Shown here: positions 6,176 to 41,899 of the stretch, in pieces
How the letters are laid out: each line of letters opens with the position of its first letter
Numbering within the stretch: position 1 is the first letter of the stretch
Origin: Aquificaceae bacterium
Lineage (GTDB): Bacteria; Aquificota; Aquificia; Aquificales; Aquificaceae
Direction: 5' to 3'
DNA: 51,477 bases
Assembly (NCBI GenBank): GCA_037481935.1
Contig: JBBFKQ010000010.1
Coordinates: 1 to 51,477 of the forward strand
Position numbers and translations under genes: made by a program
The notes under the pieces: model-generated
The model's input: only the letters and a program-made list of their open reading frames with translations
What the model was told of the DNA's origin: nothing
Database searches by the model: none

Positions 6176-6619
6176 ATGAGGGCTGTTCTGCAAAGGGTAA
6201 AAGAGTCAAGGGTTCTTGTGGATGGCTCGGAGGTTGCACGCATAGGTGAGGGGCTCAACATACTACTGGGGGTTGGGGTGGGTGATACTGAAGATGACGT
6301 TAAAAAGCTCGTAGAAAAGATAATAAACCTGCGTATCTTTGAAGGCTCCTCCGGAAAGTTCAACCTTTCTCTTCTTGATATAATGGGCTCTGCACTTGTT
6401 GTATCCCAGTTTACGCTCTATGCCAACATAAGAAAGGGCAGAAGACCCAGCTTTGAGCTTGCAGAAAAGCCTGAGAGGGCAAGGGAGCTCTATGAGCTCT
6501 TTGTAGAAAGACTCTCGGAGCATGTGCCCACCCAGTGTGGTATGTTCGGTGCCATGATGGAGGTTCATATAGTCAACTGGGGACCTGTTACCATAATACT
6601 TGACAGCAAGGAGATTTAG
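6176..6619 (+). CDS. dtd: D-aminoacyl-tRNA deacylase
   Basis: Dtd hydrolyses D-amino acids (and misacylated Gly) from tRNA, keeping D-amino acids out of proteins. The 147-residue protein has both active-site motifs: SQFTLYA (about residues 79-85) and NWGPVT near the C terminus, the Gly-cisPro motif. Start ATG at 6176 gives the canonical MRAVLQRV opening. There is no ribosome-binding sequence; instead TAAAAT lies 8 bases upstream, suggesting a leaderless mRNA. Divergent from the ompA-like gene with 42 bases between them; its 3' end overlaps the convergent HerA gene by 4 bases. Confidence 0.96.
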   Translation: MRAVLQRVKESRVLVDGSEVARIGEGLNILLGVGVGDTEDDVKKLVEKIINLRIFEGSSGKFNLSLLDIMGSALVVSQFTLYANIRKGRRPSFELAEKPERARELYELFVERLSEHVPTQCGMFGAMMEVHIVNWGPVTIILDSKEI

Positions 6620-8466
6620 AGTTCTATTTCTAAAAGCATGCTGAAGGGCACGGCTATACCGCTCAGGAAAAGGTGACCCGGTTTGAGGGTGGGTAACAAC
6701 CTGACCTGGTCTTCGTAGGGATATTCAAAGAACTGTGAAACTGCGTTTATGTCATTCTGCGTTATCAGCCTGAAGATTGCCTGAGTGTTGAGTTGAGAGA
6801 GCACATACTTGCTCAAGTTTGCAGGTCTCTGAGAGACAGCCAGAAGACCAACTCCAAACTTTCTTCCTTCAAGGGCTATCCTCTTTGTCATACTTATGGC
6901 CAGGTTCTCCCTGCCTGCAGGAACCTCCGTGGCTCCCCTCTCTGGAGCAAAGTTGTGAGCTTCTTCAAGAACAAGGAGCCTTCTTGAAGGTTTTGACCTG
7001 GCAATGGACATTATCTCTCTGAGAAGGAGCCCCGTCATGTTTAGCCTGGTGTTTATGTTCACCACATCCCTGAGGTCTATTATGACCACATCAGCAGGTG
7101 AGCTGAGGGCTTCACCCAGCAACCTGAAGACTTGTGGTTGATTCTGGAGGACCTCTTCACCCATGTCTTTTGACAACATACGGAGCACTTCAAGCACCTC
7201 CTTTTTCAGTCCACCCTTAGAAGCCTCAAGGAGCATGTCTCCCAGGCCTCTTTCAGCATAAGCGGAGAGTCTGAGGTCCGGTTTTATGTAAGTCCTCATG
7301 TGGGTGAGGAATGTCCTTTCCTCCTCACCTTTCTCCTGAAGTAAAAGTCCATATTCTCTAAAGAGCTCCTTTATATCCTCCACCCATAGAGGAAGAAGTG
7401 TATAGGGTATTCTTACGTGGTGAATTCTGCTCTCTTCAATTCTGAGCTTCTGCCTGTACTCTCCGAACAGGTCAAAGACAAAGGTTTTGCATACAGCGGG
7501 TGGCGTGTTTTCAATGAGCCTTGCCACAAAGGTGGTCTTTCCAGAGCCTGTGGTCCCGAGGATAGCCATGTGCATGGAGCTTATTTTTGCAAGGTCCACA
7601 TAAACTGATACTGGCCTTCCCACAAGGTTTCCAACCCTCACAGGCAAGTCCATTGAATAGCCAGAGAGGTTTGTTTTCATAACCCTCTTGAGGTCCTCAT
7701 CCCCCTCTCTTACAGGAAGAAGCTGGTCACCCGGACGAAGACCGGAGAGGGGTGTGCCAAAGTAGCCCTCCTCTTTTTCTCTGAGCTCAAGGAGCACCCT
7801 GACCTTTCCCATAAGACCAGACGCCCTGAGAGAGGTTCTGAGGTAGGCAACAGCCCAGACCCTGCTTTCAGAGGGACCCTCTAAGGATTCTGGCTGACCT
7901 GTATGGGTGTATACCTTTGTGAGCTTGCACAGAAGCCTTCCATGCTCCCTTTGAGCCCACAGAAAGGACTGCTCTGGGAGGTTTTCAAAGAGAGCCACCA
8001 CCGCCTCTGTGGAAGATTCAACGGACAGAACAACCGCCACCGTATCCTCAAAGAGTCTTACAGACCTTCTTTTGTAGTCCTCAAAGAGCTCAAGAAGCCT
8101 CCTTGCCTCCTCTCCATGCAGGGCGACCATGACCTCTAAATTGCCATCCTCCTCAAGTCCCGGTCTTGTGAGGTTTGCAGAACCCACAAGGGCTAGTCTG
8201 TCGTCTATCAGTATGAGCTTCGCATGAAGCTTTTCGTTTATGTATAGCTCAGCACCATACCTTTCAAGAGCTTTAAAAGTGCCCTCTCCCGTTATGCTCA
8301 AGTCCCTAAGCTCCCCGGCTCTGAGTATAACCTCAAGCCTCACACCTCTAGGAAGCACCTCGAGGAGTTTTTCAAGCATGCACTGGTCAATCCAGGGAGA
8401 GGCTATCTTCAGGCTCTTGCTGGCTGTTGCCACTTCCCTTCTGAGTATCTCAAGATATTCCTTCAT
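6616..8466 (-). CDS. Phospholipase D-like nuclease fused to a HerA-family ATPase
   Basis: A 616-residue fusion. Residues 1-130 form one phospholipase D domain with an intact HKD motif (H81-A-K83-x4-D88) and GSANLT at 95-100. After a linker comes a HerA-like part: a beta-barrel region (about 220-290), Walker A GTTGSGKT at 304-311, Walker B LLVLEEAH at 497-504, and the HerA signature SQRPANLSKYVLSQLNTQ near 545-562. HerA proteins are hexameric DNA translocases that usually work with a separate nuclease such as NurA; here the nuclease is on the same chain. A single HKD motif implies a dimerised active site. Role may be DNA end processing or anti-phage defence. It overlaps coaE by 17 bases, so is likely co-transcribed with it. 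Confidence 0.88.
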   Translation of the reverse strand: MKEYLEILRREVATASKSLKIASPWIDQCMLEKLLEVLPRGVRLEVILRAGELRDLSITGEGTFKALERYGAELYINEKLHAKLILIDDRLALVGSANLTRPGLEEDGNLEVMVALHGEEARRLLELFEDYKRRSVRLFEDTVAVVLSVESSTEAVVALFENLPEQSFLWAQREHGRLLCKLTKVYTHTGQPESLEGPSESRVWAVAYLRTSLRASGLMGKVRVLLELREKEEGYFGTPLSGLRPGDQLLPVREGDEDLKRVMKTNLSGYSMDLPVRVGNLVGRPVSVYVDLAKISSMHMAILGTTGSGKTTFVARLIENTPPAVCKTFVFDLFGEYRQKLRIEESRIHHVRIPYTLLPLWVEDIKELFREYGLLLQEKGEEERTFLTHMRTYIKPDLRLSAYAERGLGDMLLEASKGGLKKEVLEVLRMLSKDMGEEVLQNQPQVFRLLGEALSSPADVVIIDLRDVVNINTRLNMTGLLLREIMSIARSKPSRRLLVLEEAHNFAPERGATEVPAGRENLAISMTKRIALEGRKFGVGLLAVSQRPANLSKYVLSQLNTQAIFRLITQNDINAVSQFFEYPYEDQVRLLPTLKPGHLFLSGIAVPFSMLLEIEL

Positions 8467-39287: not shown

Positions 39288-39542
39288 ATGAGACTTTCCT
39301 GTGATATAGAGTTGAAGAGGGGCGTGGAGGTGCCACATAACTTCAGGCAGGGACTTTTGTCTCTGGTCAAAGAATCAATAAAAAGGAGCTCAGAGGATGG
39401 TGAGCTGTTTTATAGGGTCTGGTACTCTTACAACAGACAGAAGCCTTTTACTTTCTCTGCTTTTTTCCCTTTGAAAAGGGTAAAAGGAAAGTCAATTCTT
39501 GATGGGGATTTCTTTAGTTTTAGCCGCCAATTGTGGGATTGA
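39288..39542 (+). pseudogene. Truncated Cas6-like endoribonuclease running into a CRISPR repeat
   Basis: An 84-residue frame starting MRLSCDIELKRGVEVPHNF with a strong AGGAGGGG ribosome-binding sequence. The N-terminal half resembles the first RAMP domain of Cas6: strand, VPHNFRQGLLSLVKESIK helix, then FYRVWYSY and KPFTFSAFFPL, the KPFTFS block being typical. Cas6 is about 200-260 residues, so the catalytic second half is missing. The frame ends inside a CRISPR-like repeat (39517-39545), whose bases encode the last nine residues. Read as a cas6 gene cut by a deletion that joined it to the array. The Cas6 match is visual and not proven. Confidence 0.5.
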
Positions 39543-39605
39543 AAGGTATCCGCTAAATAGTCCTGTAATTCTTACAGGTGAGGTTTTAGCTGCCAATTTT
39601 GGAAG
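39517..39605 (+). CRISPR. Two-repeat CRISPR remnant
   Basis: Repeat 1 (39517-39545, 29 bases) begins GTTTTAGCCGCCAATT and ends GGGATTGAAAG, the classical 3' end of thermophile CRISPR repeats. After 37 bases a second copy (39583-39605) shares 15 of its first 16 bases but has a diverged 3' half, as terminal repeats often do. The repeat-to-repeat distance of 66 bases is normal. The 37-base spacer contains a perfect hairpin CCTGTAA-TTC-TTACAGG. No other cas genes are nearby. Confidence 0.55.
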
Positions 39606-39638: not shown

Positions 39639-40274
39639 ATGGTAGTGCCCGTTGATGTTGACCAGCTTTTTCAACTCACAAACTTGGTGGGTATAGTTAC
39701 ATTTTCAGTAGCTGGTGCCCTCAAAGGAATAAGGGAAGGGCTTGACCTTCTTGGAATAGCCACTCTAGGTGTGGTAACTGCTCTTGGTGGAGGTATGCTC
39801 AGGGACATAATGGTGGGAAAGATTCCAAACGCTCTCCTATCACCCTATGACATGAGCCTTGCCCTTTTGGGTGTTCTCATATCACTGCTTCTTCACACAA
39901 GAATCAAAAGACAGCTTGAAAACAGGTATGCCTTTCTCTTACTTGATGCCGTAGGGCTGTCAGCCTTTACCACCACGGGTGCTATTCTGGCTTACAGCAC
40001 AGGTGTGTCCTTTTATGGTGTTGTGCTCCTCGCCACCATCACTGGCGTAGGTGGAGGTGCAATAGGGGACATACTTCTCAGACGGGTCCCATGGGTGCTG
40101 AAAGAAGACTTCTACGCCACATGTAGCATAATCGGGTCAGTGGTCTTTTATGTAAGTATGGAAATCATTCAGAATATTACCCTTTCCTCACTAGCATGCA
40201 CCCTCAGTACCCTCATACTGCGTATACTTGCAATTGTTTATGGGTGGAGGCTGCCGAGGATTGTGAGAGGATAG
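39639..40274 (+). CDS. TRIC-family (UPF0126/YicG-like) membrane channel or transporter
   Basis: A 211-residue membrane protein with seven hydrophobic segments and two repeats carrying the family signature: FSVAGALKGIREGLDLLGIATLGVVTALGGGMLRDIM in the first half and AFTTTGAILAY, TGVGGGAIGDILLRRVP in the second. Bacterial members act as glycine or potassium carriers. No clear ribosome-binding sequence; AT-rich leader with TAAAAT just before the ATG. Its stop codon touches the dif-like site. Confidence 0.88.
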   Translation: MVVPVDVDQLFQLTNLVGIVTFSVAGALKGIREGLDLLGIATLGVVTALGGGMLRDIMVGKIPNALLSPYDMSLALLGVLISLLLHTRIKRQLENRYAFLLLDAVGLSAFTTTGAILAYSTGVSFYGVVLLATITGVGGGAIGDILLRRVPWVLKEDFYATCSIIGSVVFYVSMEIIQNITLSSLACTLSTLILRILAIVYGWRLPRIVRG

Positions 40275-40300
40275 CTAATATAATAGCAATTATATTAACA
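40273..40300 (+). other. Candidate dif (Xer recombination) site
   Basis: A 28-base site with 11-6-11 layout. The inner arms TAATATAA and TTATATTA are a perfect 8-base inverted repeat around the 6-base centre TAGCAA. The right arm TTATATTAACA matches the right arm of E. coli dif at 8 of 11 positions, and the left arm ends in ATAA as dif does. A Xer-type recombinase gene is 0.74 kb downstream, as in xerH-difH and xerS-difSL systems. Confidence 0.6.
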
Positions 40301-40318
40301 CAGACGGAGCGGGTCTGT
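40300..40318 (+). repeat. Small inverted repeat beside the dif-like site
   Basis: ACAGAC and GTCTGT around a 7-base GC-rich loop, immediately right of the dif-like site. It could be a weak terminator for the TRIC gene (no T-run of note) or an extra protein-binding site. Confidence 0.35.
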
Positions 40319-40323
40319 TTAAC

Positions 40324-40349
40324 TGACATCTGTTGACATCTGACATCAG
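40324..40349 (+). repeat. Three iterons overlapping a promoter
   Basis: TGACATCTG occurs at 40324-40332 and 40334-40342 (10 bases apart, one helical turn), and TGACATCAG at 40341-40349. They overlap the -35 of the promoter for the HTH/Xer genes, so they look like an autoregulatory operator or accessory sites for the adjacent dif-like site. Confidence 0.6.
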
Positions 40350-40361
40350 ACATTATAAAAT
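40333..40361 (+). promoter_or_regulatory. Sigma-70-type promoter for the HTH coiled-coil and xer genes
   Basis: TTGACA (40333-40338), 17-base spacer, TAAAAT (40356-40361). A strong AAAGGAGG ribosome-binding sequence and ATG follow at 40390. Iterons cover the -35 and spacer. Confidence 0.6.
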
Positions 40362-40389
40362 TCTGTCAAAATATTGAAAGGAGGCTGTC

Positions 40390-41022
40390 ATGGAGAATGA
40401 CAGGGGATTTGTCAAAGTGAAGGCATCCGAATACGCCCAGCTCATGGACCTGTCTCTCAACACGGTAAAGAATCGTATAAGGGCCGGGGTCTTGAAGGGA
40501 GGCAAGGAGGAAGATGGTATATGGTATGTTTACCTTACTCAGGAAGAGCTGGAACACATAAGAGGTTTTAGAGAGGTTCAGGAAGATAGAAACAGGAGCC
40601 TTCAATCAAACCTTGAGGGGCTGAAATCAACCCTTGAAGGTAGTTTAATAGCCACATACATGTCCGCACTTATGCAGAAGGAACAGCAGAAAGAACAACT
40701 TCTTCATGAACTCTCAAGTCTTTATACGCTCCTTGCTATAAGGGAGAAGGAGATGGAGTTTTTATTGAAAGAGCTTGAAAACACTAAGGAAAGATGCAGA
40801 GAAAAGGAGCTGGAAAACCAGAAGTTAAAGGGGATAATAGAAGAGAAGGAAGAAGTAATCAAAAGGCTTCAAGAAGAACTGAGAGAGAAGGAGCATATTC
40901 TGAACCAGAAGGAGCTGGAACTCCAGAGGGTTGTGCTGGACAAAGACAGAGAGTTACTAAGCAAGGAAATGGAACTATCTACCCTTCGCATGGAACTGGA
41001 GAAGAGAAAGAAGAAGGAATAA
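40390..41022 (+). CDS. MerR/excisionase-type HTH protein with a long coiled coil
   Basis: A 210-residue protein. Residues about 8-60 form a helix-turn-helix of the MerR/excisionase type (KASEYAQLMDLSLNTVKNRIRAGVLKGG followed by the wing GIWYVYLTQEEL). Residues about 100-208 are an uninterrupted coiled coil of Glu/Lys/Arg/Leu heptads. The layout recalls DNA-binding, filament- or bridge-forming proteins such as plasmid KfrA, though no sequence family is recognised. It lies directly downstream of iterons and a dif-like site and 13 bases upstream of the xer gene, so it may bind the iterons and regulate or assist recombination. Confidence 0.75.
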   Translation: MENDRGFVKVKASEYAQLMDLSLNTVKNRIRAGVLKGGKEEDGIWYVYLTQEELEHIRGFREVQEDRNRSLQSNLEGLKSTLEGSLIATYMSALMQKEQQKEQLLHELSSLYTLLAIREKEMEFLLKELENTKERCREKELENQKLKGIIEEKEEVIKRLQEELREKEHILNQKELELQRVVLDKDRELLSKEMELSTLRMELEKRKKKE

Positions 41023-41035
41023 AATTAATAAGACC

Positions 41036-41899
41036 ATGGACGGGCTTTTAGACCTCTGGGTTAAGAGCCTGAGCAGGACAAAGAGCCAAAGGACTGTAAT
41101 CACCTACAGCATGTGTCTTGCCTCTTTTCAGAAACATGTAGGTAAGGGCATGAATCTTCTCGAAATTGAACCCATGAAGGTTTTTTCATACATTGACTCC
41201 TCTGAGCTTTCTGTAACCTCTCTTCTGACCCACCTCTCTGCTATAAAGCATTTTTATAAATTCGCCTTTAGAAGGGGATGGCTTAGCAAGGAACAGTTCT
41301 CCGAGCTTGAAGCAGTTATTGAAGAGATAAGGGAAGACCTTTCAGGCTCCAGGTCGCAGAAAAGCCCGAAAGCTCTCAGCAAGGAAGAATTGAGCAAAAT
41401 CTTTGAAACGGTAAGAAATACAAAGTACGAGCGTGTATATAGCCTTCTTCTATACAGTGGTATAAGGCTTTCTGAATATGCCCAGCTCAGAAGGGAGTTC
41501 TTTCAGAGGGACAGGAACAATATATACTGGCTGAGACTGCCTGCGGAGGTAACCAAGAGGGGGAAGGAAAGACTGGTTCCCATAATGGGTCCATCAAAAG
41601 AGGAGACCATGAGCATAAACGAAAAGCTTGATTACTGGCTTCAGGATTACGATGCTTTCATTATGGTAAAGGCAGGTTCTTTGCAGGTCTATACCAACAG
41701 GCTTTCTCAAAGACTGGGCATTCCCTTTTCTGTGCATAGCTTCAGGCATACATACATAACGAACCTTGTAAACTCAGGCTTTCCTGCAGAGGTGGTAAAG
41801 GAGTTTGCAGGACACTCAAATGTAAAGACAACCATAGACATATACTACCGTTTCAGTCAGGAGAGGGCAAGGATCATGGTGGAGAACTTTCTCAGATGA
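41036..41899 (+). CDS. Xer-type tyrosine recombinase
   Basis: A 287-residue site-specific recombinase. The N-terminal SAM-like core-binding domain (about 1-105) is followed by the catalytic domain with all residues: Arg in YSGIRLSEYAQL (about 144), Lys in TKRGKERLVP, H-x-x-R in SVHSFRHTYIT, His in AGHSNVKTTIDIYYR and the nucleophile Tyr in that last block. Size and layout match XerA/XerH single recombinases rather than phage integrases, and no tRNA attachment site is near. It lies between the HTH coiled-coil gene and trmD (4-base overlap). Likely resolves chromosome dimers at the dif-like site upstream. Confidence 0.88.
   Translation: MDGLLDLWVKSLSRTKSQRTVITYSMCLASFQKHVGKGMNLLEIEPMKVFSYIDSSELSVTSLLTHLSAIKHFYKFAFRRGWLSKEQFSELEAVIEEIREDLSGSRSQKSPKALSKEELSKIFETVRNTKYERVYSLLLYSGIRLSEYAQLRREFFQRDRNNIYWLRLPAEVTKRGKERLVPIMGPSKEETMSINEKLDYWLQDYDAFIMVKAGSLQVYTNRLSQRLGIPFSVHSFRHTYITNLVNSGFPAEVVKEFAGHSNVKTTIDIYYRFSQERARIMVENFLR

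Follow-up and report, generated by a model that had tools for sequence, protein, structure and literature searches.

How Xer recombination is kept under control in cells without FtsK is a question still to be answered. It is raised by a locus of the Aquificaceae, which are hot-spring bacteria, where a dif-like site, a short array of direct repeats, a gene for a predicted DNA-binding protein and a xer gene follow one another between positions 40273 and 41899 of the window, i.e. the whole 51,477-nucleotide stretch of DNA that was analysed (the source genome is an Aquificaceae draft of 1.69 Mb in 26 contigs). The literature on archaeal Xer holds that regulation in archaea must use a different mechanism (PMC8371274), and the Aquificae are absent from the phyla of a large published dif prediction (PMC3025954). 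Neither a dif of the Aquificae nor a comparable dif-linked DNA-binding coiled-coil partner was found in the literature searched, and as far as that literature shows the sites described here may be the first to be reported from the Aquificae. Xer and dif are themselves of a known kind. What is new is a replaceable DNA-binding coiled-coil partner tethered to dif, in a phylum without detectable FtsK-gamma.

The site at 40273-40300, AGCTAATATAATAGCAATTATATTAACA, is composed of AGCTAATATAA, the spacer TAGCAA and TTATATTAACA, and overlaps the stop codon of the gene upstream. The preliminary description had singled it out by perfect 8-bp arms flanking TAGCAA, and these (TAATATAA and TTATATTA) are found in the window sequence at that position. 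The right arm, TTATATTAACA, is identical at 8 of 11 positions with the arm of E. coli dif. A palindrome with 8-bp arms and a 6-bp spacer occurs by chance about once per 51 kb (one was found; shuffled sequences gave a mean of 1.0). Since the palindrome stands at chance level, the reality of the dif rests on conservation and not on the palindrome. Alignment of 27 Aquificaceae loci, anchored on the helix-turn-helix (HTH) gene downstream, shows exactly 28 conserved bp with divergence immediately beyond both edges. The consensus of these loci, T-GTTAAYATAA-TNGCNA-TTATRTTAAC-A, consists of two inverted 11-bp arms and a 6-bp spacer, which is the architecture of dif. The 28-mer is present once in the source genome with up to 3 mismatches allowed; it had been expected to be unique and to align in related genomes, and both expectations held. 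When 136 Aquificota genomes were searched with the consensus, the site was recovered in 49 of the 64 Aquificaceae, usually once, and only weakly in 3 of the 72 others; the 49 include G060 and G061, whose sequence, at 2 mismatches, differs and is probably unrelated. One strong match per genome is the norm, i.e. one site per chromosome. The site goes together with Xer of the Aquificaceae type, in that the three Aquificaceae without any Xer match (G044, G005 and G049) are without dif too. Judged by sequence comparison, these data make the 28-bp palindrome a dif.

As a separate matter, a role of the 28-mer as a mere operator of the HTH protein was considered and is ruled out by its persistence in genomes without the HTH gene. 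In genus g10 a second conserved but imperfect palindrome, GTTATTATAAGTGTGCTTATGTCAAC, was seen (G058:C128:17460, G060:C53:14801 and G061:C160:214), and is possibly unrelated to dif.

The xer gene (41036-41899, forward strand) encodes a 287-aa tyrosine recombinase, XerA/XerC/XerD-like, that matches Pfam Phage_integrase at 3.8e-18. The full R-K-H-R-H-Y catalytic set claimed for it is borne out by residues R144, K174, H234, R237, H260 and Y270. The canonical XerCD-dif-FtsK system has two paralogous recombinases; here this Xer is the sole PF00589 (Phage_integrase) protein of the genome, which supports the earlier proposal that a single Xer is used with the dif-like site. Its top NCBIfam match is XerA (NF040815), at 91.8 bits below the cutoff of 220, and its score against XerS (NF003462), 37.5 bits, is likewise below the cutoff, which is 267. 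Among PDB entries the best match is 4a8e, a XerC-like recombinase (the archaeal XerA of Pyrococcus abyssi). FtsK-gamma, also part of the canonical system, was detected in none of the 136 Aquificota genomes (control, 8 of 14). Most matches of Aquificaceae proteins to the FtsK family PF01580 are weak, and the only FtsK-like match of the window, at 6616-8466, is a protein with a PLD domain and a HerA/DUF87 ATPase. A proposal made for archaea is that HerA functionally replaces FtsK (PMC2958812).

Between dif and xer lies the gene (40390-41022, forward strand) of a 210-aa protein, which had been described as an extra DNA-binding coiled-coil protein. The gene is present beside dif, and the structure model of its product (mean pLDDT 89) agrees with that description, with a predicted winged HTH of the MerR/BldC/Xis type at about residues 5-55 and a long helix at 82-209. 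The folds nearest to the HTH head are BldC and the phage excisionase Xis, at 16-24% identity and with modest Z values of 4.9-6.2 (<8); RacA is also among the structural matches. BldC and Xis both bind repeated sites; the head here resembles their fold, with the difference that a long coiled coil is added. Sequence searches of Pfam, NCBIfam and PDB with this protein returned nothing usable beyond coiled-coil noise. No Pfam match reached the gathering level, and HTH_17 was matched at best at 0.022, in 5 of 17 members of the protein family. In one family member (L096, from G054) an in-frame TAG after 54 codons leaves the DNA-binding head alone, and an assembly error is possible there.

Three TGACATC repeats on the forward strand (40324-40350), the presumed operator or accessory sites of the HTH protein, begin at 40324, 40334 and 40341, with spacings of 10 and 7 bp. 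They overlap a sigma-70-like promoter, TTGACA-17-TAAAAT (40333-40361, forward strand), that scores 11 of 12, so that the three iterons and the promoter reported earlier beside dif are confirmed. In 21 homologous intervals between dif and the HTH gene, TGAYA was observed 94 times where 19.8 +/- 3.8 occurrences were expected, and the copies are often 10 bp apart. In G029, G039 and G057 TTGAYATC was not enriched at distances of up to 200 kb from dif; the TGAYATC array is therefore local. No TGAYA array was found at the five xer genes distant from dif that were checked (G052, G053, G054, G056 and G057).

The spacing between dif and the HTH gene is nearly constant: the ATG follows dif at 85-98 bp in 27 of 27 HTH genes for which the upstream DNA could be read. 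The xer gene is placed variably. In some genera it adjoins the dif/HTH unit, with the HTH gene and xer head to tail in an apparent operon, and in others it is unlinked (G052, G053, G054, G056, G057, G030, G031, G033 and G034), at 180-675 kb from dif in the complete genomes among them. The expectation that dif would lie next to xer in relatives thus holds in part of the family and fails in the rest, and it is the DNA-binding-protein gene that dif tracks. Gene order is scrambled between these genomes, and the neighbourhood around dif is otherwise not conserved. Because the dif-HTH spacing is kept despite this scrambling, the linkage is likely under selection. Protein distances of HTH and Xer correlate (r = 0.92, Mantel 0/2000), a co-divergence that fits vertical descent. 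The conserved unit is dif with the gene of a predicted DNA-binding protein, not dif with xer. In genus g8, the xer genes away from dif (L021, L022, L023 and L025) are located directly downstream of apparent tRNA genes, as judged without a tRNA finder.

Genera g3 and g11 are without the HTH gene. In 14 genomes of these genera dif lies instead 73-130 bp upstream of a gene for a ribbon-helix-helix (RHH, PF01402)/coiled-coil protein, which is unrelated to the HTH gene and occupies the same place beside dif. With few exceptions, these 14 genomes have TGTAATACA sites at two distances from dif, 9-10 bp and 73-76 bp. With these distances constant, the operator geometry is fixed relative to dif, which a plain autorepressor would not require. 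In the HTH lineage the dif-to-array spacing varies by about 10 bp. Several genomes depart from the pattern, e.g. G025 and G027, where decayed RHH/coiled-coil genes abut dif, G015, where the RHH gene is on another contig, and G021, where a contig end interrupts the locus. In G001 and G004 neither an HTH nor an RHH partner could be recognised beside dif, and thus the partner is either not strictly required or encoded elsewhere. The dif-adjacent RHH/coiled-coil proteins (L206-L220) carry a conserved basic-aromatic C-terminal tail, KKRRWFF, and multicopy RHH relatives in G061 end in WWxFW; a membrane-binding or partner-binding function of these tails is possible.

Site conservation, uniqueness, linkage to a partner, operator arrays, replacement of the partner and the lack of detectable FtsK-gamma are all observed, and on this basis we infer that Xer acts on dif, that the dif-linked protein binds the array and that it controls recombination. 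The reading preferred here, to which an even chance is given from comparative data, is that of a dimer-resolution dif served by a single Xer, without FtsK-gamma, and provided with a dedicated accessory protein tethered to dif, the array being a cer-like accessory site. One Xer would bind the two 11-bp arms of dif, and its strand exchange between two dif copies would resolve chromosome dimers. The TGAYATC array, phased at 10 bp and located between dif and the start codon of the HTH gene, would be bound by the winged-HTH coiled-coil protein, which would there repress its own promoter and build a nucleoprotein complex beside dif. The timing and manner of synapsis between two dif sites would be set by this complex, together with contacts that the coiled coils make from one such complex to another. 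The HTH protein would in this way fill the role of FtsK in a phylum without FtsK-gamma, much as ArgR/PepA do at cer, and in other genera the unrelated RHH coiled-coil protein would have taken the same place. The likeness to plasmid Xer accessory systems can serve as a good working model. A wider proposal, that the Aquificaceae swapped FtsK control of Xer for a site-specific accessory protein whose gene lies at dif, with the array as a resolution enhancer and two unrelated coiled-coil-fused DNA-binding folds independently in the role, is more tentative and falls somewhat short of an even chance.

Under the accessory-protein reading there is a candidate controller that is tied to dif and whose place in sister genera is taken by a protein that shares its architecture but is unrelated to it. 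Being tethered and replaceable, such a candidate makes the question of control testable with two small proteins and about 130 bp of DNA. Since the Aquificaceae are without the recombinase-activating domain of FtsK, the dif-linked protein may control unlinking.

The main rival explanation is a positioning or anchoring factor similar to KfrA, RacA or MatP, which would coat the array and by its coiled coil hold dif at the division plane or pair sisters, leaving Xer chemistry untouched. The HTH head, alpha-helical tail and autoregulation via direct repeats over the own promoter are the architecture of KfrA (PMC7783346). The presence of RacA among the structural matches, the aromatic-basic C-terminal tail of the RHH/coiled-coil partner and a linkage to dif rather than to xer also point this way. 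Linkage fits the accessory and the positioning models alike, and only the accessory model predicts an effect on purified Xer. The motif, unlike matS or RacA sites, is not spread through the surrounding 400 kb and no sign of membrane or divisome partners was seen, and positioning is regarded as rather unlikely. If the HTH gene were an ordinary autorepressor of xer, or of itself only, its linkage to dif would be hitchhiking. A plain autorepressor, too, would have its operator at its own promoter, and both the overlap of array and promoter and the apparent HTH-xer operon of several genera fit this explanation. It is nevertheless given a low probability: the dif linkage holds where xer is far off, and xer is without a TGAYA array in the five such genomes checked; elsewhere an unrelated RHH gene takes the same position with its operators at a fixed distance from dif; and gene order is otherwise scrambled.

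Mobile elements offer another explanation: elements that borrow Xer to integrate at dif (IMEX-like) would have brought in the DNA-binding gene as cargo or left it behind as a remnant. The contig of a partial phage (L242, IMGVR_UViG_3300021973_000005), encoding terminase, portal and head genes, carries at 8093-8118 a dif identical to that of G001 and G053, which suggests that the phage integrates through the host Xer, though an integrase of its own may be encoded outside the part of the phage covered here. The multicopy WWxFW-tailed RHH relatives in G061 and the degenerate RHH genes abutting dif in G025 and G027 would also be in keeping with cargo. A host-identical dif on a phage contig is also what a functional Xer site would lead one to expect. 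Against a mobile origin, co-divergence links the HTH gene to Xer, its spacing from dif is constant across many genera and no second dif copy flanks it. When viral contigs were scanned with two conserved peptide patterns of the HTH protein, no relative was detected, and a mobile origin is held to be very improbable.

Among known systems, XerS/difSL and XerH/difH also have one Xer, with xer beside dif as in several genera here. They differ in that xer here is often unlinked, an extra DNA-binding partner is present, FtsK-gamma is not detected and the recombinase is below the XerS cutoff. MatP has an RHH DNA-binding domain and a coiled coil, and the RHH-type partner here has the same combination; in contrast to matS, the operators here look local to dif and not terminus-wide, as judged from the HTH motif only. 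The archaeal XerA/dif system, in the available portion of Cortez et al. 2010 (PMC2958812), is similar in its single Xer, its 28-bp 11-6-11 site, one per chromosome, and its independence of FtsK. The present system differs in its bacterial host and in that dif is tied to a dedicated coiled-coil gene and an operator array, a feature not found in that portion of the paper. At ColE1 cer and pSC101 psi, with ArgR, PepA and ArcA (PMC5357621), accessory protein sites also lie beside the Xer core site; cer and psi borrow a regulator, whereas here the site is chromosomal and the putative accessory protein is dedicated and dif-linked. KfrA of IncP/IncU plasmids resembles the HTH protein, with architecture alone compared, in its HTH head, long helical tail, repeats over its own promoter and part in replicon maintenance, and differs in being plasmid-borne, with no Xer core site found in the accessible part of PMC7783346.

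The preliminary description had also proposed that the site marks the chromosome terminus, which would place a GC-skew switch at dif. This is not supported, though not refuted either, by the absence of GC skew and of polar octamers, the scattered dnaA-dif distances and the lack of a conserved neighbourhood. GC skew in G036 and G052, computed for 20 stretches per genome, gave no replichore pattern, gene strand being dominant, and there is no usable skew in the lineage by which a switch at dif could be placed. KOPS-like polar octamers pointing at dif were sought in five genomes and none was shared. With dnaA as a proxy for oriC, and with rough lengths for G030 and G033, distances from dnaA to dif range from near zero to 163 degrees (0.45 of the genome). 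Either dnaA is off oriC or dif is not opposite oriC; dnaA may not be a safe marker of oriC here. The parS consensus as an origin marker gave two weak matches only, and no symmetric-inversion signal was seen around dif, gene order being scrambled.

The window also has one or two decayed CRISPR-like repeats at 39518-39600. In the sister genome G036 this repeat forms an array of 17 copies (C1:530899-531957), which lies about 0.7 kb away from the dif of that genome.
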